64,000 nucleotides of DNA, taken from the NCBI RefSeq assembly GCF_014323725.1, contig NZ_JABVED010000025.1, forward strand, positions 1 to 64,000, read 5' to 3'. The notes under the pieces are model-generated. The model had not been told where the DNA came from. It saw only the letters and a program-made list of their open reading frames with translations, and made no database searches. Positions 39,295 through 55,576 of this stretch are shown here, piece after piece. This stretch comes from Actinokineospora xionganensis (lineage in GTDB: Bacteria; Actinomycetota; Actinomycetes; Mycobacteriales; Pseudonocardiaceae). A program made the position numbers and the translations under genes. Position 1 is the stretch's first letter. The number at the start of each line of letters is the position of its first letter.

Positions 39295-40023
39295 TCAATC
39301 GCGCGCGGGGAAGATCCCGTTGACGCAGATGCTGTAGGTCATGTTGTCGGGCGCGGCGGCCCGGAGGTCGGGCAGCGCGAAGGTCACCCGGCCGTCGCCG
39401 CCATAGGTGGTGCCGATCAGGGCGAACAGGGCCTGGTTCTGGTTGATGGGCAGGAGTTGGCCGTTCGCGGGCACACCGTTCGCGACCGTGCCCGCGTGCA
39501 GGATGATCTCGGAAATCGTGCACTCGCGGCCGCGACCGGAAGCGGCGGTGTTGGTGTTCGTGCCGAAGACCCCGGCGGTCCCGGACGGACCCTGCGGGCC
39601 TTGCGGCCCCTGAGGCCCTTCCGGGCCCGCGGGTCCGGTGGCACCCGTGGCTCCGGTGGGACCGACCGGTCCGGCGGGTCCCGCGGGTCCCGCGGGTCCA
39701 GCAGGCCCCGTGGCCCCGGTGGCACCCGTGGCTCCGGTCGGCCCGGCAGGACCTGCCGGTCCCTCGGGTCCCTGGGGTCCGGCCGGTCCGGCGATGTTCC
39801 ACGAGATCGGTGTCTCCCGGGTCGAGCACTGCTGACCCGCGGCCGCATCGATCACCCGGAGGACCTTGGTGACGTTGTTGACGCACCCGTCGATCCGCGG
39901 CTCCGGCTCCGCCGCGGCCATGCTCGCCGCCGTCACCGAACCCAGCAACGCGACTCCGGCGACGATAAGGGTCGCCCGGCGGGTCGGCGTCGGCCACCCG
40001 ATTCCTGCCATCGTGCTCACCAT
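39295..40023 (-). CDS. secreted collagen-like protein with phage-tail-collar domain
   Basis: 242 aa. A signal-like hydrophobic segment ([20 protein letters not shown]) is followed by a short Cys-containing region ([20 protein letters not shown]), then about 24 uninterrupted Gly-X-Y triplets (residues ~80-151, e.g. [20 protein letters not shown]), then a tail-collar type domain ([59 protein letters not shown]). Tail-collar domains are best known from phage tail fibres and microcystin-dependent proteins; here it trimerises a collagen-like stalk, probably at the surface. Start uncertain: ATG 40023, GTG 40020 or ATG 40011. Confidence 0.85.
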
Positions 40024-40180: not shown

Positions 40181-41830
40181 CTACGGCCCGAAAGCCGTCA
40201 GGAACCTGTCGCGGAAGGAGTCCATCGGCCAGACCGGGGCGCGGGAGCCGGGTTTGAGGCCCGCGTCCCAGTTCCACGGGGCGACGCGGTTCAGCACGGC
40301 CTGGTCGCGGGTGACGATGGTGATCGGGACGTCCCAGGTGGCCTGCTCACCGGTGACGATCTTGGCGGGTTGGTGGTCGCCGAGGAAGACGAGCACCAAG
40401 TCGTCGTCGCCGTAGGTCTCGACATAGGAGACCAGGGTGTTCAGCGAGTACTCGATGGAACGCCGGTAGTCGGCGCGGATCTGGGTGGGGTCGCCGGTGA
40501 AGATGGCCTCCGCGGGGCGGTCGCCGGTGTGCATCGTCTTGAAGATCGAACCGTCGCCGACGTCGGCCCAGTCGATCAGCGCGGGGGTCGGCGTCCACGG
40601 GGCGTGGCTGGAGACCAGCGGGATCACGGCCATCAGCGGCTCGTCGGCCTTCGCGCGCTCGGACCGCTCGAACGCCGCGAGCGTGTACTGATCGGGCATG
40701 GTGGCGTAGCTGAACCGTGGGCCGTGGTATCCGAGGTCGCCCGCGGTCTGGATGCTCCGGTAGCCGAAGAACGCCCCCTCCGGCCACGCGTACGTGATGC
40801 CGGGAACCACGCCGACCGAGCGCCAGTCCGCCCGCTGGAAGGCGCCGCCCAGGGTGAGGCGGTCGCCGGAGACCAGGGTGCGGTAGCGCTGCTGGTTGTC
40901 GATCCACAGCCCGGAGAGCAGCGTGGCCTGCGCCAGCCAGCTGCCGCCTCCCGTGGTCGGCGAGGTGAGAAAGGCGCTGCGGGAGCCGTATCCGGCGGCG
41001 CCGAGCCTGCGGGTTCCGGCATCGAGCGCCGCGCCGACCTGGGGCGCCAGCTCCGGGTCCTCGACGGCGTCGCGGCCGTAGCTCTCGACGAAGGCGACGA
41101 TGACGTCTTTGCCGCGCAGGGCGGTGAGCAGGTCCGCGCCCGGGGTGTCCCGGAAGCGGTCGACCACGGCCTCGGCGGCGAACTTGTCCTGGTCGAGCAG
41201 GCCCGCCCGCACCTGGCGCGCGTGGTCCAGGGCGAAGGCGGCGGCGCTGCCCGAGGCGATGGGCGCGTCGGGGTCGATCCGCACGCCCGGGATGGCCGCG
41301 GTGATCCACACCACGGCGAGGACCGCGACCGCGCGCGCCGCCCCGAGTCGGTGCTGGGTCACCAGCCGGGTCAGGCGCAGGGCGGACAACGTGGTCAGGA
41401 CCAGCAAGGCGAGCGCGAGCACGACCGCCCCGACGACCGCGGCGACCGCGCCGGCCGGACCGGCTGTCGCGTCGAGGTAGCCCACGGCGGGAGCTAGCAA
41501 CGGCCAGTCGAGGACCAGGTCGAACGGGCGGTGCAGCACCGCGTCGAACCCCATGTCCATGATCTTCACGACAGTCAGCAGCCCCAGGGCGACACCCACG
41601 AGCACCGCCATCCCCCGCCGCGCCCGGGTGGGCAGGACGATGAAGAGGACCACGCCGAGCAGCCCCTCCACCGGGACGCGGAGGAAAGCCAAGGGGCTCA
41701 GGCGATCGAGGTCGCTCGGGGCGAGCAGCGCGAACAGCACGAACCCGCAGGCGAGCGCGGTGGCGCCCCAGGTCGCGAGCCGACGAACCCGCCCGCGCCC
41801 GAACCTCCGAAGCGGCGCGAACAACTCCAT
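40181..41830 (-). CDS. LTA-synthase/sulfatase-like membrane protein
   Basis: 549 aa. Residues 1 to ~185 hold about five TM helices; the extracytoplasmic alkaline-phosphatase-fold domain follows. Motifs: VAFVESYGRDAVEDP, TSPTTGGGSWLAQATLLSGL (Thr nucleophile region), LVSSHAPWTPTPALIDWADV and FLGDHQPAKI. It belongs to the sulfatase superfamily used for transferring phosphoglycerol-type or phosphoethanolamine groups to surface polymers. Start ATG with GAGAGG upstream. Divergent from the RibD-like reductase gene and likely the outer-face enzyme of the 40-49.5 kb cluster. Confidence 0.85.
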   Translation of the reverse strand: MELFAPLRRFGRGRVRRLATWGATALACGFVLFALLAPSDLDRLSPLAFLRVPVEGLLGVVLFIVLPTRARRGMAVLVGVALGLLTVVKIMDMGFDAVLHRPFDLVLDWPLLAPAVGYLDATAGPAGAVAAVVGAVVLALALLVLTTLSALRLTRLVTQHRLGAARAVAVLAVVWITAAIPGVRIDPDAPIASGSAAAFALDHARQVRAGLLDQDKFAAEAVVDRFRDTPGADLLTALRGKDVIVAFVESYGRDAVEDPELAPQVGAALDAGTRRLGAAGYGSRSAFLTSPTTGGGSWLAQATLLSGLWIDNQQRYRTLVSGDRLTLGGAFQRADWRSVGVVPGITYAWPEGAFFGYRSIQTAGDLGYHGPRFSYATMPDQYTLAAFERSERAKADEPLMAVIPLVSSHAPWTPTPALIDWADVGDGSIFKTMHTGDRPAEAIFTGDPTQIRADYRRSIEYSLNTLVSYVETYGDDDLVLVFLGDHQPAKIVTGEQATWDVPITIVTRDQAVLNRVAPWNWDAGLKPGSRAPVWPMDSFRDRFLTAFGP

Positions 41831-41922
41831 CGACTGTCCTCTCGTAAGGTGGTGCCGCCAATCGGTACTACGGTCGGCGGACCACTTCCGGTTCAGAATC
41901 GCGGAAACAGAACGGATACACC

Positions 41923-42588
41923 GTGACCCGCCCCCACGTCCTGCTCAGCGTCGCCGTCAGCGTCGACGGCTACATCGATGACCGGAACGGCCAAGGGTTC
42001 CCGCTGTCCAACGAGATCGACTTCGACCGGGTCGACCAGGTGCGGGCCGAGTCCGACGCCATCCTGATCGGTGCCGAGACCGTGCGCCGGGACAACCCCC
42101 GCCTGCTCGTCAACAGCGCCGCGCGGCGGGCCGCGCGGGTGTCCGACGGCCTCCCGGAACACCCCGTGAAAGTCACCGTGACCGGCACCGGCGACCTCGA
42201 CCCGGACCTGCGGTTCTGGCACTGCGGTGGCCGAAAGGTCGTCTACACAACGGATTCCGGCGCGGCCGCGGCGAGGCTGGGCGAGCTGGCCGACGTCGTG
42301 TCGCTGGGTGGCGGGATCGACTTCGCCCGGCTCCTCGACGACCTTGGCGGGCGCGGCGTGCGCAGGCTGATGGTGGAGGGCGGCGGCCGGATCCACACCG
42401 CGTTCCTGGCGGCCGGGCTGGCCGACGAGATCCAGCTCGCGGTCGCCCCGCTGCTGATCGGCCACGCGGGCGCGCCGCGCTTTCTCAATCCGGGCGAGTT
42501 CCCGGGCGGACCCGCGCGCCGCATGCACCTCGAAGACGTCACCAGGGTCGGCGACGTCGCCGTGCTGCGCTACTTCCCCAAAGCCTGA
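41923..42588 (+). CDS. RibD C-terminal (dihydrofolate-reductase-fold) pyrimidine reductase-like
   Basis: 221 aa NADPH-dependent reductase of the RibD/HTP-reductase family. Motifs: LLSVAVSVDGYIDDRNGQG, DAILIGAETVRRDNPRL (the family dinucleotide-binding signature), VRRLMVEGGGRIHTAFL and LADEIQLAVAPLLIG. In riboflavin synthesis such enzymes reduce the ribosylamino group of a diaminopyrimidine. Here it is stand-alone, lacks the deaminase half and sits in a cluster with a GTP cyclohydrolase II paralog, so it probably acts on a pyrimidine derived from GTP. GTG start; its TGA abuts the opposite TGA of the DoxX gene. Confidence 0.87.
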   Translation: MTRPHVLLSVAVSVDGYIDDRNGQGFPLSNEIDFDRVDQVRAESDAILIGAETVRRDNPRLLVNSAARRAARVSDGLPEHPVKVTVTGTGDLDPDLRFWHCGGRKVVYTTDSGAAAARLGELADVVSLGGGIDFARLLDDLGGRGVRRLMVEGGGRIHTAFLAAGLADEIQLAVAPLLIGHAGAPRFLNPGEFPGGPARRMHLEDVTRVGDVAVLRYFPKA

Positions 42589-42981
42589 TCAGCTCCGCGG
42601 CCTGGCGAGCAACGCGAGGATCGTGTCGCGGCGGAACCAGGCCACGACCAGGCTCAGCACCAGCAGGATCGCGGGCAGGACCGGGCCAGGCTTGTCCACC
42701 AGGAACAGCTCCGTGCCGACGGCGCCGACCATGACACCGGCCAGGCCGAGCGCGGCGAGCCCGCACAGGCGCGGGATCAGCAGGCCGATCGCACCGGCGA
42801 TCTCGAGTGCGCCGGTGAGGTAGCGCAGCCACTGGCCGAAGCCGATGTCGTCGAACTTCGCCACGAGTCCGTCACCGAACAGCGTGGTCGCGCTGTAGAT
42901 GAAGTACGCCGCGAGAGCCACTTGCAGGACCCACAGCGCGATGTTGCCCGCCACCCGGGTGGCACTGGCTTGATCAGACAT
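42589..42981 (-). CDS. DoxX-family membrane protein
   Basis: 130 aa, four TM helices (NIALWVLQVALAAYFIYSAT, YLTGALEIAGAIGLLIPRL, LAALGLAGVMVGAVGTELFL, AILLVLSLVVAWF) of the DoxX/DoxD-like family. Often accessory subunits of oxidoreductases at the membrane; no activity can be assigned. ATG 42981 lies inside the end of the CDP-alcohol phosphotransferase gene (8-nt overlap), so the two are coupled. Its stop abuts the RibD-like stop. Confidence 0.85.
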   Translation of the reverse strand: MSDQASATRVAGNIALWVLQVALAAYFIYSATTLFGDGLVAKFDDIGFGQWLRYLTGALEIAGAIGLLIPRLCGLAALGLAGVMVGAVGTELFLVDKPGPVLPAILLVLSLVVAWFRRDTILALLARPRS

Positions 42982-43693
42982 GGCGGCATCCTTGCACCGG
43001 CGCGGGCCTACGACGCCAGAGCCCAACGATGTCGCGGCCGAACGACCACCCAAGCGTGACCAACGCGAGCCCCACCAGGACAGCGGCGTGCGGGACGACC
43101 CCGCTCGCGGCGACGACCAGGACGATCCCCTGCGCCGCGGCGACGGCCTTGCGGGCGAAGCTGGGCGGCAGGTCTCCACGCAGCCAGGCCAGCCGCCAGG
43201 AAGCGGCGACGAACAGATACCGGACGGTGCCGATCGCGAGCACCCACGGGCCGAGCGACCACGCGACGTGGACGCTGAGAACCAGGATCAGGAAGGCGTC
43301 GACCTCCATGTCGAAGCGGGCGCCCAAGGGAGACTCCGTGCCCGTGCGCCGCGCGACGACACCGTCGACGCAGTCGAGGGCGAGCGCCACGGCGGCGAGG
43401 GCCACCACGACCGGGACAGTTCCGTCGGCGCGGTCGGCCACCAGCGCGGTGACCCCGCCGATCAGCAGCTGCCGGGCCAGGGTCACGCGGTCGGCGGGAC
43501 CGGGCGCCGCGGTGTCGGACCGGCGCATCGCCCGGGTCAGCAGCGCCCCGGTGGCCCAGGCGTGGACGAGACCGGCCACGATGCCGAGCGGACCGAGTCC
43601 CATGGTCGCCCAAAGCAGGGCCAGCAGGAGGAGTTGACCGCCCGCCCACACGGCGGGCTCGCGCCAGGCCGTGGTGTGCTGGAGTGTGACCAT
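42974..43693 (-). CDS. CDP-alcohol phosphotransferase
   Basis: 239 aa multi-pass enzyme that transfers a phosphoalcohol from CDP-activated donor to an acceptor in the membrane. The complete family signature D-x2-DG-x2-AR-x8-G-x3-D-x3-D is seen as DCVDGVVARRTGTESPLGAR followed by FDMEVDA. Surrounding TM helices: VWAGGQLLLLALLWATMGLG and others. Acceptor unknown. ATG 43693 with AAGGGG; divergent from the zinc-dehydrogenase-like gene and coupled to the DoxX gene. A membrane-lipid arm of the cluster is suggested. Confidence 0.9.
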   Translation of the reverse strand: MVTLQHTTAWREPAVWAGGQLLLLALLWATMGLGPLGIVAGLVHAWATGALLTRAMRRSDTAAPGPADRVTLARQLLIGGVTALVADRADGTVPVVVALAAVALALDCVDGVVARRTGTESPLGARFDMEVDAFLILVLSVHVAWSLGPWVLAIGTVRYLFVAASWRLAWLRGDLPPSFARKAVAAAQGIVLVVAASGVVPHAAVLVGLALVTLGWSFGRDIVGLWRRRPAPVQGCRHV

Positions 43694-43738
43694 CGCGCCC
43701 CTTGCGGCAGAAAGGCCCCGGATCTCGGAGGATATTGG

Positions 43739-44719
43739 ATGACACGCACGGCAAGGGCCCTTTGGTTCACCTCGTCCGGCAACTGTGAGATCCGACCGGT
43801 CGACCTCCCCACCCCCGGGGCCGGGGAGATCCTGGTCCGCACGCTCTTCTCGGGGGTCAGCCGGGGAACCGAGTCACTTGTCCTCGCAGGCTTGGTGCCC
43901 GAGAACCAGCGTGCGGTGATGCGCGCCCCTTTCCAAGAAGGTGACTTCCCGTGGCCGGTCAAGTACGGGTACCTCAACGTCGGGGTCGTCGAGGACGGAC
44001 CGGCGAACCTGCTCGGCCGCACGGTTTTCTGCCTGTATCCGCACCAGACCCGGTACGTGGTCCCGGCCGACGCCGTGACCCCGCTCCCGGACTCCGTGCC
44101 GGCGGCGCGTGCGGTGCTGGCCGGGACGGTGGAGACGGCGGTGAACGCGGTGTGGGACGCGGCCCCGCTGATCGGCGACCGGATCGCGGTGGTCGGCGGC
44201 GGGATGGTCGGCTGCGCGGTCGCCGCCGTGCTCGCCCGGTTCCCCGGGGCCGGGGTCCAGCTGGTCGACACCGACCCGGCCCGTGCGTCGGTAGCGGCGG
44301 CGCTGGGGATCGGGTTCGCGTCGCCTTCGGAAGCCGACGGGGGCTTGGACCTCGTGGTGCACGCCAGCGCGACCGAAAGCGGTCTCGCCCGGTCTTTGGA
44401 GCTGCTCGCGCCGGAGGGCAGGGTCATCGAGCTGAGCTGGTACGGCGACCAGCGGATCTCGCTGCCGCTGGGCGAGTTCTTCCACTCCCGCAGGCTCACC
44501 GTGCGCGCCAGCCAGGTCGGGACGGTGGCCCGCGCAGATCGGACCTATGCCGAGCGGATGGCGCTGGCGCTCGACTTGCTCGCCGACCCGGTGTTCGACA
44601 CGCTCATCACCGGCGAGAGCGACTTCGACGACCTGCCCGAGGTGCTGCCGAGGCTGGCGTCCGGCGAGCTCTCGGCCCTGTGTCACCGGATTGACTACGG
44701 TCGCGCACATGACCGGTGA
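43739..44719 (+). CDS. zinc-type alcohol-dehydrogenase-like oxidoreductase
   Basis: 326 aa MDR-superfamily oxidoreductase. GroES-like N-half (GAGEILVRTLFSGVSRGTES) and Rossmann half with IAVVGGGMVGCAVAAVLARF (the GxGxxG-type GGGMVG), followed by VQLVDTDPARASVAAALG. The usual catalytic zinc Cys/His set of classical alcohol dehydrogenases is not evident, so zinc may be absent. ATG 43739 has GGAG about 8 nt upstream. Overlaps the creatininase-family gene by 11 nt, so both act in one pathway. Substrate unknown. Confidence 0.87.
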   Translation: MTRTARALWFTSSGNCEIRPVDLPTPGAGEILVRTLFSGVSRGTESLVLAGLVPENQRAVMRAPFQEGDFPWPVKYGYLNVGVVEDGPANLLGRTVFCLYPHQTRYVVPADAVTPLPDSVPAARAVLAGTVETAVNAVWDAAPLIGDRIAVVGGGMVGCAVAAVLARFPGAGVQLVDTDPARASVAAALGIGFASPSEADGGLDLVVHASATESGLARSLELLAPEGRVIELSWYGDQRISLPLGEFFHSRRLTVRASQVGTVARADRTYAERMALALDLLADPVFDTLITGESDFDDLPEVLPRLASGELSALCHRIDYGRAHDR

Positions 44720-45419
44720 CGCGTACCTGCTTCCGCTGACCACCACCGCCGACGTGCGCCACCGCGCCGCGACGGTGGCCGTGCTTCCGGTAGGGAGCCT
44801 GGAACAGCACGGGCCGTACCTGCCGCTGGTGACCGACACCGTCATCGCGTGCACCATCGCCCGGGAACTCGCCGCCGCGTACCCGGTGCAGTTGCTCCCG
44901 CCGGTGACGATCTCCTGTTCGCACGAGCACGCCGCCTGGCCGGGCACGGTGAGCATCTCGGCGCGGACGCTGCACTCGGTGGTGACCGACATCGCCGACT
45001 CGCTGCGCCGCTCCGGCGTCCCGAACCTGGTGATCGTCAACGGCCACGGCGGGAACTATGTGCTGGCGAACATCGTGCAGGAAGCCTTGGGCGGCATGGC
45101 TTTGTTCCCCGGTACCCAGGACTGGGCCGCCGCGCGCGCCGCCGCTGGGATCGAGACGTCGGCGGGCAGCGACATGCACGCCGGTGAACTGGAGACCTCG
45201 ATCCTGCTCCACGCCCATCCCACGATGGTCAAACCCGGCTACGACACGAGCGACTGGCTCGCCGACGACCGGCGGCACCTGCTGACCCTCGGGATGGCGG
45301 CGTACACAAAGTCCGGTGTGGTCGGTCGGCCGTCGCTGGCCTCAGCGCGCAAGGGCGAGGACCTGCTCGCCGGGCTGGTGGCCGCGTTCGCGGACTACCT
45401 CGCCGTTCTTCCGGAATAG
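44709..45419 (+). CDS. creatininase-family amidohydrolase (ArfB-like?)
   Basis: 236 aa metal-dependent amide hydrolase. Ligand-type residues: Glu32, His34 and Asp43 in VGSLEQHGPYLPLVTD, His113 in VNGHGGN, and His157/Glu160 in SDMHAGELETS. The family includes creatinine amidohydrolase, mycofactocin MftE and archaeal ArfB, which removes the formyl group from FAPy, the product of the first GTP-hydrolysing step of archaeal flavin synthesis. With a GTP cyclohydrolase II paralog in this cluster, FAPy deformylation is my preferred role. Coupled to the oxidoreductase; its 3' end overlaps the convergent flippase-like gene by 78 nt. Confidence 0.85.
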   Translation: MTGDAYLLPLTTTADVRHRAATVAVLPVGSLEQHGPYLPLVTDTVIACTIARELAAAYPVQLLPPVTISCSHEHAAWPGTVSISARTLHSVVTDIADSLRRSGVPNLVIVNGHGGNYVLANIVQEALGGMALFPGTQDWAAARAAAGIETSAGSDMHAGELETSILLHAHPTMVKPGYDTSDWLADDRRHLLTLGMAAYTKSGVVGRPSLASARKGEDLLAGLVAAFADYLAVLPE

Positions 45420-46358
45420 GAACAGGGCGCCGGGCAGGCTCGCCACCAGCGCGAGCACGCCGTAGACCACCGCCGTGGTGAGCCCGTGGGCCGCACCCAG
45501 GCCCGCGGCGCCGAACGCGGCGGCGAGGAAGGCCTCCCGCGGGCCCCAGCCGCCGACGTTGACCGGGATCGCCATCACCAGCAGGGCCACCACGAACAGC
45601 GGCAGGAGCCTGCCTGCGGGCGCGTCGGTCCCGCTGACCCGTGCGGCGACGAACAACAGGGCGAGGTGCCCGGCCACGGCCACCGTCGACAGGAGCGCCA
45701 CACTCGGGAAGGCACGTCGGGAAAGCAGCCCGGCGCGCGCGTCCGCCCAGACCGTGGCGGCACGCTTGCGCCACAACCCGGCAAACCCGGCGAGACCGAT
45801 CACGATGGCGAGGACGGTGATCGCGGCGGCGGGGTCGAGGGTCAGGTCCAAGGGTGGCTGGGCGAGGATGACGACAAGGGCAATGGCAATCAGGACCACC
45901 TGCCCGGCGAACCGCTCGAAGACCACCGCGCGGATACCCCGCCCGAGGTCGCCCGCCCGCTGCCCATGACTCACCGCGCGATGGACGTCGCCCAGGACCC
46001 CGGCGGGAAGCACGGCGTTGAGCAGCAAGGCCCGATAGTAGTCGGGGACCGCTGTGCCCAGGGACAGTGGAAGCCCTAGCCCCCGCGCCACCACACACCA
46101 GCGGGCGGCGCCGCACAGGGTGGTGACCAGCCCGATCCCCAAGGCCGCGACCAGCGAACCGAGGTCGACGGCACGCAACCCGTCCACAAACGCGCCCGCC
46201 CCCAGCCGCACGAGCAGCGCGAGCAGGATGCCGCAGGCAAGGAGGAGCCGCAGCCAGGGCCAGAGCCGACGGACCATGGCGACGCCGGCAAGGACGGATC
46301 GCCGCTGCCGCAATACATCGCCGCTCGAGAACCCGTGCGTCGCGTCGCCCCGGATCAT
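45342..46358 (-). CDS. flippase-like / LPG-synthase-TM family membrane protein
   Basis: 338 aa, about eight TM helices, of the lysylphosphatidylglycerol-synthase transmembrane (flippase-like) family without the catalytic acyltransferase domain. Signature-type segments: ARWCVVARGLGLPLSLGTAV, YYRALLLNAVLPAGVLGDVHRA (the N-x-hydrophobic-P-G-G-x-G region), VFERFAGQV and VNVGGWGPREAFLAAAFGA. Such proteins are thought to move lipid-linked sugars. ATG 46358 chosen for GGAGG 5 nt upstream. Last of four same-strand genes with methyltransferase, glycosyltransferase and PTPS-like protein. Confidence 0.85.
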   Translation of the reverse strand: MIRGDATHGFSSGDVLRQRRSVLAGVAMVRRLWPWLRLLLACGILLALLVRLGAGAFVDGLRAVDLGSLVAALGIGLVTTLCGAARWCVVARGLGLPLSLGTAVPDYYRALLLNAVLPAGVLGDVHRAVSHGQRAGDLGRGIRAVVFERFAGQVVLIAIALVVILAQPPLDLTLDPAAAITVLAIVIGLAGFAGLWRKRAATVWADARAGLLSRRAFPSVALLSTVAVAGHLALLFVAARVSGTDAPAGRLLPLFVVALLVMAIPVNVGGWGPREAFLAAAFGAAGLGAAHGLTTAVVYGVLALVASLPGALFLFRKNGEVVRERGHQPGEQVLALAR

Positions 46359-46470
46359 GTCGGCCTCCGCACTGCGCAGAGACCAGCGTGCGCGCCCACC
46401 CAATCCGGCGAGACGCGTGCGAAAGCGGATCGCCGCTCCCACACCACCTTTCGACGCGGGAACCCGCGCG

Positions 46471-47259
46471 TCATGTCGACCTCGGCAACGCCAACAGATC
46501 AACGTGCTCGACCACGACCCGCATCCCACCCGTGAGCCGCCGCCTCAGGTAGGCGGGTGCCGCCGCGGCCAGGGCCGGTCGCTGTTCGCAGGCCGCGCCC
46601 ACCCACCCCCGCAGCCACTCCCCCGCCAGCGCGGCCTGGTCCGGTCCCAACCGCCACGGGCTCGGCCGGGTCCACACCATCGCGCCGCGGCGTTCGAACG
46701 AGTCGACGGCCGCGGCGACCGCGTCGGGGCCGAGCAGTCGGCGGCCGTCGACCTCGCGGCGCTGGTGTTCGTTGAAGGCCTCGGTGAACTCGGCGTCCAG
46801 TCGCTCCGGCGGGTCCAGTTCGACCCGGCCCGCGACGGACAGGGTCAGCAGCGCCGGGCAGTCCGCGTCGACGCAGGCGGCAGCCAGGGAGTCGACCTCC
46901 TCGGCGGTGAGCAGGTCCAGCAGGGCCGAGGCGGTGAGCAGCGAAGTGCCCTCGAGGTCCTCGGCTCGCAGTGCGGTGAGGTCGCCCTCGCGGGTCTCTA
47001 CCGTCACGCCCGGGCCGGTCACCGTCGCACCGGCCACGGCGAGCAGCCGGGGGTCGCGGTCGTGCAGCACCCAGTGCTGCCTGCCGCCCAACCGCCCGGA
47101 GAGCCATCGGCCCATCGATCCTGTGCCACACCCGATATCACGCACGAGGAGGGGGTTTCGGTTCAGCGGACTTTCCCGCAGCGGGTCGAGCAAGCCCTCG
47201 GCCCGCGCGTCGGCGTCGGCCTTCTCCCGCAGGGCCAGCCACTCCGGGGCGAAACTCAT
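46471..47259 (-). CDS. SAM-dependent methyltransferase
   Basis: 262 aa class I methyltransferase. Motif I is DIGCGTGSMGRWLSGRLGG, the acidic end of strand 2 is VLHDRDPRLL, and the later block is ETREGDLTALRAEDL with LLTASALLDLL. The target is unknown; in this cluster a ring nitrogen or hydroxyl of a pyrimidine/pterin, or a sugar, is plausible. ATG 47259 overlaps the glycosyltransferase stop (ATGA, 47256-47259), so the products are made together. Confidence 0.88.
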   Translation of the reverse strand: MSFAPEWLALREKADADARAEGLLDPLRESPLNRNPLLVRDIGCGTGSMGRWLSGRLGGRQHWVLHDRDPRLLAVAGATVTGPGVTVETREGDLTALRAEDLEGTSLLTASALLDLLTAEEVDSLAAACVDADCPALLTLSVAGRVELDPPERLDAEFTEAFNEHQRREVDGRRLLGPDAVAAAVDSFERRGAMVWTRPSPWRLGPDQAALAGEWLRGWVGAACEQRPALAAAAPAYLRRRLTGGMRVVVEHVDLLALPRST

Positions 47260-48326
47260 CGGCCGAGCCTAGCCAGCACGCCCGCCAGATCACGGGCGCA
47301 GTCGTCCCAGGTCCGCAGCGCCTTCCCGCGCGCCAGCGCCGACCGCCGCAGGTCGCCACGCAGGTCGGGATCGCCCAGCCAGCGCCGCACCGCCGACGCC
47401 AGCGCGCCTGCGTCGCCGGGCGGCACGAGCAGACCGGGCACGCCGCCGTCCGGGGCCTGGCCGAGGGTGTCGGGGACACCGCTCACCGCGGTCGCCAGCA
47501 CCGGAACTCCCCTGGCCAGGGCCTCGGCGACGACCATGCCGTAGGTCTCGGCTCGTGACGGGAGCACCAGCAGGTCGGCCGAGGTGTACTCCTGGTCCAG
47601 GGACTCGCCGGTGCGCGGACCGTCGAGCGTCACCCGGTCGCCGAGACGGTGCCGCGTGATCAGCAGGCGCAACTCTTCGACGTAGCCCTGGTCCCCCAGT
47701 GGGCCGACGCACGCGCAGGTCCACGGCAGGTCAGCCACCGCGGCGAGGGCTTCGACGAGCACATCGTGGCCCTTGCGTGGCGTCACCGAGGCGACGCAGA
47801 GCAGCCGGGTGCCTGCTTCGGTGCCGGGGGCGGGCGGCGCGGGGTCGGTCCCGGGCGTGACGGTGTGCACCCGTTCGGCGGCGAGCCCGTGGTGCTCGAC
47901 CAGCCTGCGCGTCGCCCACGGGCTGGTGGTGACGACCGCTTCCGCCGCGCGCAGGGTCTGCCGCTCGGCGGCGTCGAGCGCCGACGCCAGTTCGGGTGCG
48001 AGCCCCGTCTCGTCGGCCAGCGGCAGATGCACCAAGACCACGAGACGCAACCGGCCCGCGTGCGGGACGACGACTTCGGGGACGCCACAGGCCACCAGAC
48101 CGTCGAGGAGCACGGCCACCCCGTCGGGGATACCGGCCAGCGCGCCGGCCAGTTCCGCGCGGGCAGCGGTGTCCGGGCGCGGCCACGCTCCGGGGACGGC
48201 GATCTCGTGCACCGCCACCCCCAGTTCGACCAGACCGCGGCACACGCGGCGGTCGTAGACGTTGCCCCCGCTGGGTCTGGCCGCGTCGTCGACGCCATCG
48301 GGCAGGACGACCTGGACAGCGTTCAC
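47256..48326 (-). CDS. GT4-type glycosyltransferase
   Basis: 356 aa retaining nucleotide-sugar glycosyltransferase with GT-B fold. C-lobe markers: [20 protein letters not shown] and [20 protein letters not shown] (the E-x7-E donor region), then [18 protein letters not shown]-lobe begins [20 protein letters not shown]. The GTG start overlaps the PTPS stop (GTGA at 48323-48326). Sugar and acceptor unknown. Between the PTPS-like protein and the methyltransferase in one coupled unit. Confidence 0.9.
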
Positions 48327-48733
48327 AGGGACCGTTCGTAGCTCGCCCACGCGACGTGCGACTCGTGGAGCGTGACCTCGATCCCGGCGAGCCCGCGCGC
48401 GCCTTCACCGAGAGCGCCCGCGTGCACCCGATCGGCGAGCCGGTCGGCGATGACCTTGGCCAGGAACTCCGTCGACGTGTTGACCCCGGCGAAGGCGGGT
48501 TCGTCGTCGAGGTTGCGGTAGTTGAGGTCGGCAAGCACCTTGCCGAGTTCCTCGGTCGCCAGGCCGATGTCGACCACGATGTTGTCCGAATCGAGTTCGG
48601 CGCGGCTGAACCTCGCGTCCACCACGAACGTAGCTCCATGCAAGCGCTGCGCCGGGCCGAAAACCTCGCCGCGGAAGCTGTGGGCGACCATCACGTGATC
48701 ACGAACAGTGATGCTGAACAGGGTGACCTCCAC
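48323..48733 (-). CDS. 6-pyruvoyltetrahydropterin-synthase/QueD homolog lacking catalytic Cys
   Basis: 136 aa from GTG 48733. T-fold protein: [65 protein letters not shown] and IEVTLHES. In QueD the site is CGRLHGH; here it is AQRLHGA, so the catalytic Cys is Ala (residue 28) and the third zinc His is Ala (residue 34). His18 and His32 remain. It therefore should not run the standard reaction. Start alternatives: GTG 48733 has no ribosome site, while CTG 48721 has GGAGG at perfect 5-nt spacing and gives the family N-terminus FSITVRDH. First of four coupled genes, divergent from the GCH II paralog. I recall a structurally studied Streptomyces homolog. Confidence 0.86.
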
Positions 48734-48807
48734 TAATGCACCGGATACCGTACGACCTTCGACCGAGCGTAATGACCGTCCGGCCGGAGCCTGCTGAAGG
48801 GGACGCT

Positions 48808-49455
48808 GTGGACGAGGCAATCAGTCGCGAGGACGTCGCGGAGTCCGACCTCATGACCCGGCGCGGCAAGTTCCGGGCAGTCGCCTTCCGCGACGGCCAC
48901 GAGCACATGGCCCTCGTCTACGGAACGGCGCGGCCGCGGGAGAACGTGCTCGTCCGGGTCCACTCCGAATGCATGACCGGCGACATCTTCGGCGCCATGC
49001 GCTGCGAATGCGGCGACCAACTCGACGCCGCGCTCGACCGGATCGTCAGCGAGGGCAGCGGCGTGTTCGTGTACCTGCGCGGGCACGAGGGGCGCGGGAT
49101 CGGGTTGCTGGCGAAGGTGCGCACCCACGTCCTGCAGGACGAGCAGGGGCTCGACACGCTGGATTCGGCCACCACACTCGGGTTTCCGATCGACACCAGG
49201 GACTACACCCCGGCCGCGAGGATCCTCAAACACCTGCGGGTCCGGTCGGTCCGGCTGATGTCCAACAACCCCGACAAGATCCGCGCCCTGGAGGCGAACG
49301 GCATCGCGGTCGTGGAACGGGTGCCGCTGCTCGTGCCCGCGACCGACCACAACGTCGGATACCTGACGGCGAAACGCGACCGGCTCGGCCACCACCTGCC
49401 GCAAGTGGACACCTTCTCCGGCGACTACTCGTTCGCCGGCGACAACCGCACCTGA
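48808..49455 (+). CDS. GTP cyclohydrolase II paralog with Tyr-to-His substitution
   Basis: 215 aa from GTG 48808 (AAGGGGA at 48797-48803). Opens the imidazole ring of GTP in riboflavin-type pathways. Zinc Cys are present: [20 protein letters not shown] (Cys55, 66, 68). [15 protein letters not shown] and [19 protein letters not shown] match RibA. The catalytic Tyr of E. coli RibA (Tyr105, in KIRAYALQD) is His107 here (KVRTHVLQD). A Streptomyces coelicolor paralog with Met at this place was reported, as I recall, to stop at the formamido intermediate FAPy. The same is likely here. Divergent from the PTPS-like operon. No 3,4-DHBP synthase domain is attached. Confidence 0.88.
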
Positions 49456-49489: not shown

Positions 49490-49888
49490 ATGGCTGTGGA
49501 GAGCACTCGCGTGGACCGGTGGCTGTGGGCGGTCCGGCTGACCAAGACCCGGCCGGACGCCGCCGCGGCCTGCCGGGGCGGGCACGTGCGGATCAACGAC
49601 CGCCCAGCCAAGCCCGCGACGATGGTGGTCGCGGGCGACGAGGTGCGGGTGCGCGTCGACGGCGTCACGCGGGTGGTGGAGGTGGTGCGAACCATCCAGA
49701 AGCGAGTCGGCGCGGCCGACGCCGCCACCTGCCTGATCGACCGAACACCAGCCCCGACCCCGGAAGCGGCCATCCCCGTCGCACGCCGTGACCGAGGCGC
49801 CGGCCGCCCCACCAAACGAGAGCGCCGAGTCCTCGACCGCCTACGCGGCAGCGCGCCAGACAAACGAGTCGCCCCCTCCGGCAAATGA
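49490..49888 (+). CDS. S4-domain RNA-binding protein (Hsp15-like)
   Basis: 132 aa. Residues ~6-60 form the S4 RNA-binding fold: RVDRWLWAVRLTKTRPDAAA, CRGGHVRINDRPAKPATMVV, GDEVRV. A basic C-terminal tail (GRPTKRERRVLDRLRG) follows, as in Hsp15, which rescues stalled 50S subunits. ATG 49490 preferred over the preceding TTG. 34 nt after the GCH II paralog but probably unrelated to it. A long inverted repeat starts within its last codons. Confidence 0.9.
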   Translation: MAVESTRVDRWLWAVRLTKTRPDAAAACRGGHVRINDRPAKPATMVVAGDEVRVRVDGVTRVVEVVRTIQKRVGAADAATCLIDRTPAPTPEAAIPVARRDRGAGRPTKRERRVLDRLRGSAPDKRVAPSGK

Positions 49889-51431: not shown

Positions 51432-52217
51432 CTACTTGACGTGCGGCGCCAGCAGGGATTCCCAGCCGCCGACGAGCTGGGTGTACTCCTCGCCGCAGGA
51501 CTCGGCCCGCTCGGCGGGCAGCGAACCCTCGGCGACCAGCTGCTCGAACCGCTTCTCGTCGGAGCCGTAGAGGTAGCAGAGGAAGTTGACCGACCGCTGC
51601 GGGTCGAGTGAGTGCGTGTCATAGAAGGGCAACTCGTCGAGGTCGGTGACCTCCGCGGCGCTGAGCTGGTAGGACTTCGCGACCGTGAGCAGGATGTCCT
51701 TGAACTCGTCCGCGCTGGTGAGGACGTAGGCGGCGAGTTGGTCGGCGACGTCCTCCTCCCGGCCGGTGATCTTGAGGTCCAGTTCGCCGATCAGCACGTG
51801 GCCCGCCTCGTGGTAGAGCGTGCCCACCGCGCTGTTGTAGACCTCGCCGTCCAGGGCTTCGCCCGCGGTGCCGTCCTTGGCGAACAGCAGGCGCTCGGCG
51901 GCGGAGAGCTCGTAGCAGTAGTGGATCGCGTGCTCGTCGGGAAGGTAGAAGGCGTTGGCCTCACCGCATTCCTTCGCCACCACCCGCACATCGCGAGGGA
52001 TGCGCACGTACTCGGTCATGGACTCGGCGAAGTCTTCCAGGACGCGGTTGTCCCGCAGCACCTTCTCCTCGGCCCGGGTGGCGTCGGTCGTCGCGGGCTC
52101 GTAGGTGGCCACGAACCGGCCGGACGCCGGGGCGGGAGGCGCCGCGTCGTCGGCCCCCGAACATCCCGTCACCAGAGCCAGCGCCGCGACCGTGGCACAC
52201 CACCGGAACCTCGTCAT
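51432..52217 (-). CDS. DUF4344 lipoprotein with HExxH motif
   Basis: 261 aa. Lipoprotein signal FRWCATVAALALVTGC, mature Cys at ~18. A zincin-type motif GTLYHEAGHVLIGELDL sits near residue 136 and a Tyr-rich NAFYLPDEHAIHYCYELSAAE before it; DUF4344 is a putative metallopeptidase family. Four further Cys may bond. ATG 52217 starts the signal. Anchored outside the membrane. Same strand as the membrane protein at 50194-51393. Confidence 0.86.
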   Translation of the reverse strand: MTRFRWCATVAALALVTGCSGADDAAPPAPASGRFVATYEPATTDATRAEEKVLRDNRVLEDFAESMTEYVRIPRDVRVVAKECGEANAFYLPDEHAIHYCYELSAAERLLFAKDGTAGEALDGEVYNSAVGTLYHEAGHVLIGELDLKITGREEDVADQLAAYVLTSADEFKDILLTVAKSYQLSAAEVTDLDELPFYDTHSLDPQRSVNFLCYLYGSDEKRFEQLVAEGSLPAERAESCGEEYTQLVGGWESLLAPHVK

Positions 52218-52299
52218 GGCGCGCAGGCTAAGCATGGCTCGCCCGCGGCCTTCGGCACCACACCCGGCACTCACCCGTGCGGGACACCCGCGTCACCCG

Positions 52300-55012: not shown

Positions 55013-55576
55013 TCATCGCCTCGTCTCGTATCGGGTCAGCACCACGCCGCCGGGAAACGTCCGCGTCTCCACGAGGTTCAGGTTCACCCAGTTGTCCAAC
55101 ACCGTGAAGAACGGCGTGCCGCCGCCCACCAGCACCGGACAAGTGGCCAGGGCATACTCGTCGATCAGCCCGGACCGCATGGCGGCCCCGGCGAGCGTCG
55201 CGCCGCCGATGCCCATCGGACCGCCGTCCTCGGCCTTGAGCCGGGTGATCTCGGCGACCGCGTCGTCGGTGACCAGGCGGGTGTTCCAGTCGACCTTGTC
55301 GATCGTCGAGGAGAACACCACCTTCGGTGTGTCCCGCCAGTTCCGCGCGAACCCGATCTCCGCCTGGGTGGCGTCGGGCTGCTGGTCACCGGTCGGCCAG
55401 TAGGAGCTCATCGTCTCCCAAAGCTTGCGCCCGTACAGCGTCAGCTCGCTCGCTTGCTCCTGGCCGAGCCACCACTGGAACAGCTCGTCGCTCGGCCCGC
55501 CCCAGCCGATGTCGCCGCCTGCCGCTGCGACGTAGCCGTCCAGGGTCACGTTCATGCCGAAGATCAGTTTTCGCAT
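55013..55576 (-). CDS. dihydrofolate-reductase-family protein
   Basis: 187 aa of the RibD C-terminal/YwjB-type reductase family: KLIFGMNVTLDGYVAAAGGD at the start, LTLYGRKLWETMSSYWPTG, KVVFSSTIDKVDWNTRLV, GIGGATLAGAAMRSGLIDEY and ending TFPGGVVLTRYE. The actual substrate is not known; these proteins are scattered singletons in actinomycetes. ATG 55576 with GAGAGG. Same strand as topoisomerase IB upstream (68 bp gap). Confidence 0.9.
   Translation of the reverse strand: MRKLIFGMNVTLDGYVAAAGGDIGWGGPSDELFQWWLGQEQASELTLYGRKLWETMSSYWPTGDQQPDATQAEIGFARNWRDTPKVVFSSTIDKVDWNTRLVTDDAVAEITRLKAEDGGPMGIGGATLAGAAMRSGLIDEYALATCPVLVGGGTPFFTVLDNWVNLNLVETRTFPGGVVLTRYETRR

Follow-up and report, generated by a model that had tools for sequence, protein, structure and literature searches.

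A conserved actinobacterial gene cluster with a modified GTP cyclohydrolase II and its proposed role in a GTP-derived pathway

The SCO6650-SCO6655 locus of Streptomyces coelicolor, reportedly studied by Spoonamore, Bandarian and others in 2006-2008, is among the closest described systems to the gene cluster treated here. Its GTP cyclohydrolase II (GCH II) paralog, SCO6655, reportedly has a Met at a switch position and makes 2-amino-5-formylamino-6-ribosylamino-4(3H)-pyrimidinone 5'-phosphate (FAPy), and a Met to Tyr change is said to restore formation of the deformylated product, 2,5-diamino-6-ribosylamino-4(3H)-pyrimidinone 5'-phosphate (APy). SCO6650 was reported to be without 6-pyruvoyltetrahydropterin synthase (PTPS) activity but with a pterin-like binding site. 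Here we analyse a cluster of this type in Actinokineospora xionganensis, found at positions 40181-49455 of a stretch of 64,000 nucleotides (the window) from contig NZ_JABVED010000025.1, contig 18 of the 6.8 Mb genome. An initial annotation of this DNA, made from the sequence alone, had pointed to a studied Streptomyces relative, which can now be named as SCO6650 (PDB 3d7j).

A second system is BrbF from Sinorhizobium meliloti, a creatininase-family enzyme proven to be a FAPy formamidase that serves riboflavin; its authors suppose a bacterial GTP cyclohydrolase III (GCH III) partner, then undiscovered, and their main text does not mention Streptomyces (PMC9478397). Elsewhere, a table in which two mycelium stages are compared gives SCO6652 as a hypothetical protein (PMC3610822), and the pteridine cluster described in PMC5384830 is a different one. 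Among the titles listed in searches of the open-licence PMC literature, none concerns the cluster or its product. To our knowledge, this is a pathway without a known product. What is new here is that the switch residue of the cluster GCH II predicts a nearby creatininase-family gene.

The switch residue of the cluster GCH II and the creatininase gene

The cluster GCH II passes the TIGR00505 model (211.5 bits, cut-off 205.85), and its His131 aligns with Tyr105 of Escherichia coli GCH II (2bz0), the switch position. It retains Cys 79, 90 and 92 and Arg155 (E. coli Arg128), the zinc ligands and catalytic Arg of GCH II, and among the catalytic residues checked the sole change is at the switch, where it differs from the SCO6655 type in having His and no Met. 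A second GCH II is encoded on another contig of the same genome (C6:66417, 55% identity), in an open frame of 473 residues, about as long as RibBA fusions commonly are, with a RibD_C match close by at C6:68316; the cluster protein is therefore a paralog, as first annotated. In the GCH II alignment, the zinc Cys residues and the catalytic Arg are conserved in 79/79 Met, His and Gln rows, the Leu rows being outside that alignment. The Met types form one clade of the GCH II tree and the His and Gln types another, with the Leu types again outside the tree. Among 31 rows taken as non-cluster GCH II, 29 have Tyr, one has a gap and one has Gln, the last being the cluster gene of L022 itself.

We scored the switch in 135 cluster GCH IIs, of which 93 have Met, His, Leu or Gln, 41 have Tyr and one has Ser. 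The presence or absence of neighbouring genes was judged on about 10 kb on each side, with whole genomes searched only where stated, and contig ends truncate some of the loci. A creatininase gene is near all 93 proteins of the Met/His/Leu/Gln class (92 within the fetched stretch and one, L300, about 13 kb off), and near none of the 41 Tyr proteins nor the Ser one. The first set scored comprised 111 cluster GCH IIs, 106 from actinobacteria and five from plasmids, and in it the creatininase accompanies 80/80 non-Tyr proteins (47 Met and one further Met on a plasmid, 31 His including L036, and one Gln), while it is found in the stretches of 0/30 Tyr proteins (26 plus four on plasmids) and 0/1 Ser. 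A later set of 35 loci was chosen from other families of the same class after the rule had been seen, and adds no new phylum; there the creatininase is found with 0/11 Tyr proteins and, within the stretch, with 12 of the 13 non-Tyr ones (six Leu, four His, two Met, one Gln), the thirteenth being L300, whose genome holds a 68% identical creatininase about 13 kb away. Limiting the analysis to those 118 of the 140 actinobacterial loci (see below) that have at least 7.5 kb on both flanks left the picture unchanged (69/69 non-Tyr, 0/22 Tyr). The Ser-type locus, L027, also has His in place of Arg128 and Glu in place of Lys154, and was counted apart from the non-Tyr class because these two further conserved residues are lost as well.

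The five genomes in which a Tyr- or Ser-type cluster was first noticed were searched whole, and in four of them there is either no creatininase or a remote one of 37-39% identity. The fifth, that of the Tyr-type locus L020, carries a broken-looking creatininase remnant of 59-63% identity (G456:C47:11672-12083), with an internal stop in one piece, which would fit a loss of the creatininase after the switch had changed. The RibD-type reductase gene is distributed differently, being found in 39/41 Tyr-type loci vs 23/93 non-Tyr loci.

The cluster creatininase retains the metal ligands of its family, E32, H34, D43, H113 and E162, which are invariant in 12/12 aligned sequences, and it is one of two creatininase matches in the genome. 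We propose from its sequence and context that it is a putative FAPy formamidase. A mycofactocin assignment, suggested by the MftE-like score of the protein, was rejected, since the genes scanned gave no match to any other mycofactocin gene.

Opening of GTP in two steps, with formation of FAPy and a separate deformylation, is well supported by comparison, because the association just described across 135 loci, the FAPy-forming GCH III found in four haloarchaeal versions of the cluster (see below) and the published FAPy formamidase (PMC9478397) all point to it, although the association goes back to about three independent evolutionary changes. This front-end chemistry had been put forward in the initial annotation, and was probably correct.

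Conservation and spread of the cluster

The actinobacterial set consists of 140 unique loci retrieved through the PTPS-like gene, which is thus present by construction. The other genes are those for a medium-chain dehydrogenase/reductase (MDR; 136 loci), a family 4 glycosyltransferase (GT4; 136), a flippase-like protein (129), a CDP-alcohol phosphotransferase (CDP-OH; 125), a methyltransferase (MT; 121), GCH II (106), the creatininase (80), the RibD-type reductase (69), a lipoteichoic acid (LTA)-synthase-like protein (53) and a DoxX-like protein (16). The PTPS-like and GT4 genes are near each other on the same strand in all 136 loci that hold both, and the same is true of MDR and PTPS in 118/136 and of GT4 and MT in 113/119. 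The cluster is a conserved biosynthetic locus, and its grouping is not by chance. The initial view that these pathway types rarely occur together does not hold, since the gene set recurs in many genomes (these 140 loci, and, for the PTPS-like protein, at least 548 relatives encoded on contigs of one genome per species, with neighbourhoods drawn from the best 80). Separation of the genes in related genomes, named at the outset as evidence that would count against the cluster, was not what the neighbourhoods showed, and the genes stay together.

The PTPS-like gene is present in 19/61 sampled genomes of near relatives, among them 3/16 of the genus, its own genome included (E ≤ 0.001). At E ≤ 1e-15 it was found in 130/397 sampled genomes of the order and 57/394 of the class. 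A sample of the phylum gave 83/396 matches at E 0.001, many of them weak and probably ordinary PTPS/QueD proteins. In one genome the cluster with its PTPS-like gene occurs twice, on separate contigs (L290 and L306), and the fuller locus is of the Tyr type. An inositol-monophosphatase-like gene, a candidate for a phosphatase step, is near 17/140 actinobacterial loci and also near the Palleronia locus L211, where it is so annotated. Two loci, L044 and L045, are reduced to CDP-OH, MDR, PTPS and MT within 20 kb, and resemble the MDR-PTPS-MT arrangement of Halobellus limi.

Outside the actinobacteria, an almost complete gene set with a Tyr-type GCH II is found on plasmids of Agrobacterium, Rhizobium and Peteryoungia, and a Palleronia plasmid has MDR, PTPS, MT, RibD and GT4, also with a Tyr-type GCH II. 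No GCH II was found within the stretch on plasmids of Methylosinus (MDR, PTPS, GT4, MT, RibD), Thiodictyon (the same five with CDP-OH and the LTA-synthase-like gene) and a Rhodobacteraceae strain (MDR, PTPS, MT, RibD). In four proteobacterial loci (L202, L203, L210, L215) a cytochrome b gene lies beside RibD, and its b561 family was confirmed for L203. Three Haloarcula plasmids show the gene order CDP-OH, GCH III (annotated as IIa), MDR, PTPS, MT, and the GCH III family was confirmed for Haloarcula pelagica (PF05165, E 2.2e-82). In Natrarchaeobaculum, GCH III adjoins MDR, with no PTPS found within the stretch. Five further haloarchaeal plasmids have MDR, PTPS and MT, with GT4 in four and GCH III in none.

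This distribution bears on the reading that GCH II, creatininase and reductase merely provide extra riboflavin or F420, beside genes that are unrelated neighbours. The three enzymes do mirror the archaeal front end (GCH III, ArfB, ArfC), and BrbF serves riboflavin in rhizobia (PMC9478397). Nevertheless, MDR, PTPS, GT4 and MT accompany the front end across phyla, the genome encodes another GCH II and a RibD away from the cluster, and no RibB, RibH, RibE or deaminase model match was obtained among the cluster genes scanned. In addition, SCO6655 is given in PMC2853524 among the genes whose expression opposes predicted flux in S. coelicolor (riboflavin metabolism, -0.61). Taken together, we regard supply of flavin or deazaflavin as very unlikely.

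Gene content and proposed pathway

All ten gene types first named for this locus are present in the window (Table 1), together with an eleventh, DoxX-like gene that had been overlooked. Of the stop/start overlaps claimed initially, those of the PTPS-GT4-MT series were recovered, with a shared GTGA at the PTPS-like/GT4 junction and a shared ATGA at the GT4/MT junction, but the overlap between the MDR and creatininase genes is 11 bases long, not a four-base stop/start. The PTPS-like and GCH II genes are divergent, with start codons two bases apart.

Table 1. Genes of the cluster, with positions in the window
Gene product	Positions	Strand	Best support or remark
LTA-synthase-like protein	40181-41830	-	N-terminal helices, then sulfatase/phosphoglycerol-transferase-like domain
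RibD_C-type pyrimidine/pterin reductase	41923-42588	+	PF01872 141.3 bits
DoxX-like membrane protein	42589-42981	-	PF13564 60.8 bits
CDP-alcohol phosphotransferase (CDP-OH)	42974-43693	-	PF01066 44 bits
MDR oxidoreductase, zinc-less, weakly BchC-like	43739-44719	+	TIGR01202 44.8 bits (cut-off 291.25)
Creatininase-family hydrolase, proposed FAPy formamidase	44709-45419	+	PF02633 207.4 bits
Flippase-like protein (FLIP; LPG_synthase_TM)	45342 to about 46358	-	PF03706 90.7 bits; start uncertain, longest open reading frame to 46529
Class I S-adenosylmethionine-dependent methyltransferase (MT)	46471-47259	-	PF13649 34.1 bits
GT4 glycosyltransferase	47256-48326	-	PF00534 99.8 bits; longest open reading frame to 48350
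PTPS-like/T-fold protein	48323-48733	-	3d7j E 6.4e-67; GTG start at 48733
GCH II paralog	48736-49455	+	PF00925 203.2 bits (cut-off 23.3)

We consider it fairly probable that the locus encodes one copy of a widely distributed orphan pathway, with GTP as starting material, that runs as follows. The GCH II paralog would open GTP and halt at FAPy, as expected from the replacement of the switch Tyr by His, and the adjacent creatininase-family enzyme would remove the formyl group to give APy, for which BrbF and archaeal ArfB are precedents. The RibD_C/ArfC-like enzyme may then reduce APy or a later ring. In a fourth step the PTPS-like T-fold protein is predicted to hold the 2-amino-4-oxo ring through its Glu and to carry out a reaction unlike those of PTPS or QueD, with the zinc-less MDR enzyme as a likely partner. 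In the last and least certain stage, MT might methylate and GT4 glycosylate the product, and CDP-OH, the flippase-like protein and the LTA-synthase-like protein might add a phospho-alcohol, translocate the product and modify it outside the cell. The product would most likely be an exported, perhaps lipid-linked, glycosylated and methylated pterin or diaminopyrimidine. Modification, glycosylation and placement on a lipid, as the initial annotation also had it, are plausible from the gene content, with the lipid step a reasonable guess.

Several observations weigh against this proposal. The cluster GCH II is absent from the fetched stretch in 58/193 loci. The creatininase undergoes three changes of state on a tree built from MDR, PTPS and GT4, which leaves three independent pairs and a sign test p of 0.25 (107 rows), or p 0.5 with 130 rows, where L300 is counted as having no creatininase. 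Thus, the association has no exception but arose independently only a few times, and could be a product of shared descent. The creatininase reaches 38.8 bits with the ArfB model NF033501, well below the cut-off of 180, and is closer to the MftE model (137.3 bits), yet again below the cut-off (172). The RibD gene is absent from 70/93 non-Tyr loci, so that the reduction step may lack universality or be supplied by other RibD_C genes. The product, its lipid attachment and the order of the steps are predictions from sequence comparison.

In favour of the proposal, the clusters that lack GCH II within the stretch also mostly have no creatininase there, with two exceptions among the 58 (L066 and the archaeal L205). 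Ten of these genomes were searched whole: five (L011, L017, L049, L053, L057) gave one GCH II match each, with creatininase matches of at most 41% identity, and the other five hold two to five GCH II matches. Three more genomes with such clusters agree, with one GCH II each and a creatininase of at best 40%.

A different order of events would also give the co-occurrence of switch change and creatininase, namely that the formyl group is kept as a protecting group and that the creatininase acts on a downstream intermediate, sparing FAPy itself. Late deformylation of this kind would explain why the enzyme should abandon one-step deformylation, and it suits the distance of the cluster creatininase from the ArfB model. 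However, the Tyr-type clusters, whose GCH II is expected to make APy directly, share MDR, PTPS and GT4, and the core enzymes therefore probably accept deformylated substrates. We consider late deformylation unlikely, and retain deformylation of FAPy itself as the second step.

For the reduction step, the best model of the RibD_C protein is the archaeal ArfC-type TIGR01508 (138.8 bits, below the cut-off of 186.45), and its solved relatives are 5xux, 6p8c and 2azn; 15 RibD_C matches are found across the genome.

The PTPS-like protein matches the SCO6650 structure over 125 residues and is the sole PTPS-family match in the genome. The anchoring Glu is retained wherever aligned, and so are two of the zinc His residues, relative to E. 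coli QueD. The third zinc His is Ala in 136/141 actinobacterial rows (the other five are gaps) and in 7/7 proteobacterial ones, and remains His in 7/8 haloarchaeal rows (one gap). At the position of the catalytic Cys, actinobacteria have Ala (134) or Ser (2; five gaps), proteobacteria have Ala (7/7) and haloarchaea have Glu (7) or Arg (1). This pattern fits what was reported for SCO6650. Public annotation names the protein 6-carboxytetrahydropterin synthase, which would make it a QueD of a preQ0/7-deazapurine pathway. Against this assignment stand the loss of the third zinc His and the catalytic Cys in all aligned actinobacterial and proteobacterial rows, a QueD model score of 33 vs a cut-off of 89.25, and the fact that the gene tables of the 18 plasmid neighbourhoods with annotation, incomplete as they are, list none of QueC, QueE and GTP cyclohydrolase I. 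A preQ0 pathway thus seems exceedingly improbable.

The MDR protein, also present in haloarchaeal versions, has no Cys at the usual zinc positions of this family (25/25 aligned). The AlphaFold2 model of MT (mean pLDDT 88.9) has methyltransferase 3mgg as its best Foldseek match, with solely generic class I methyltransferases in the best 50 matches. Its profile aligns with the haloarchaeal cluster MT over 260 columns (99.2%); for comparison, the single sequence of an unrelated haloarchaeal MT aligned over 49 columns (25.1%).

The membrane genes could alternatively belong to export or to an unrelated envelope task, the product being a soluble, secreted, glycosylated pterin with no lipid link. Cyanobacterial pterin glycosides do exist (PMC13259868), and the LTA-synthase-like gene was not found in 87/140 stretches nor CDP-OH in 15/140, some of these being cut by contig ends. 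On the other hand, the CDP-OH (125/140) and flippase-like (129/140) genes are about as frequent as MT (121). The CDP-OH motif D-x2-DG-x2-AR-x8-G-x3-D-x3-D is intact, with D107, D110, G111, A114, R115, G124, D128 and D132 invariant in 22/22 aligned sequences, two haloarchaeal rows included, and the profile matches are PssA and cholinephosphotransferases. The LTA-synthase-like protein scores 20.6 bits with the Pfam Sulfatase model, under the cut-off of 25, and a search of its alignment against PDB profiles gave no match. Its AlphaFold2 model (mean pLDDT 85.3) is nearest in Foldseek to LtaP (4uop, E 2.5e-10), then to LtaS and GacH, at a modest TMq of 0.3-0.4; E249, D485 and H486 are invariant in 16/16 aligned sequences, and homologs adjoin the cluster in three rhizobia and in Thiodictyon. 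We regard a soluble product as a rather unlikely alternative to the perhaps lipid-linked one proposed above. More speculative, and to our mind quite improbable, is that the product is a pterin-like cofactor common to Bacteria and haloarchaea, lipid-anchored and flipped outward for redox chemistry at the outer face, with the DoxX-like, cytochrome b561 and LTA-synthase-like proteins as partners.

Near the cluster, the open reading frame just outside it, at 39295-40023 (-), encodes a long collagen-like repeat followed by what looks by eye like a phage tail-collar-type end, and the small frame at 49490-49888 (+), directly after the GCH II gene, has an S4 RNA-binding domain. Further along are a putative metallopeptidase of the DUF4344 family at 51432-52274 (-) and the second RibD_C-family protein of the window at 55013-55576 (-).

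Comparison with known systems

With the switch-residue rule, bacterial GCH IIs can be picked out as candidates for FAPy formation, and the first two steps of the proposed pathway are directly testable. Our results suggest that the automatic names 6-carboxytetrahydropterin synthase, GTP cyclohydrolase II and creatininase mislead for the proteins of this cluster, and roughly one in three of the genomes sampled from the order has the PTPS-like marker of this orphan pathway.

With regard to the S. coelicolor SCO6650-SCO6655 locus, a GCH II paralog likewise adjoins these core genes in Streptomyces species. At the switch position the scored Streptomyces loci have Met in place of the His found here, and the window adds RibD, the DoxX-like gene and the LTA-synthase-like gene, in a different gene order.

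BrbF provides the bacterial example of FAPy deformylation by a creatininase-family enzyme, the activity predicted for the cluster creatininase. It differs in its riboflavin role and in its partner for the opening of GTP, which its authors had yet to discover; in the present cluster, a GCH II without the Tyr accompanies the creatininase. Like the proposed pathway, the archaeal GCH III-ArfB-ArfC route opens GTP in two steps and includes a RibD_C reductase, and haloarchaeal versions of the cluster hold GCH III itself; in contrast, the bacterial cluster would use a modified GCH II, and its creatininase and RibD_C proteins are below the ArfB and ArfC cut-offs. Finally, the PTPS-like protein belongs with QueD and PTPS to the T-fold family and retains the substrate-anchoring Glu and two of the three zinc His residues, but unlike them the aligned bacterial cluster members have neither the catalytic Cys nor the third zinc His.

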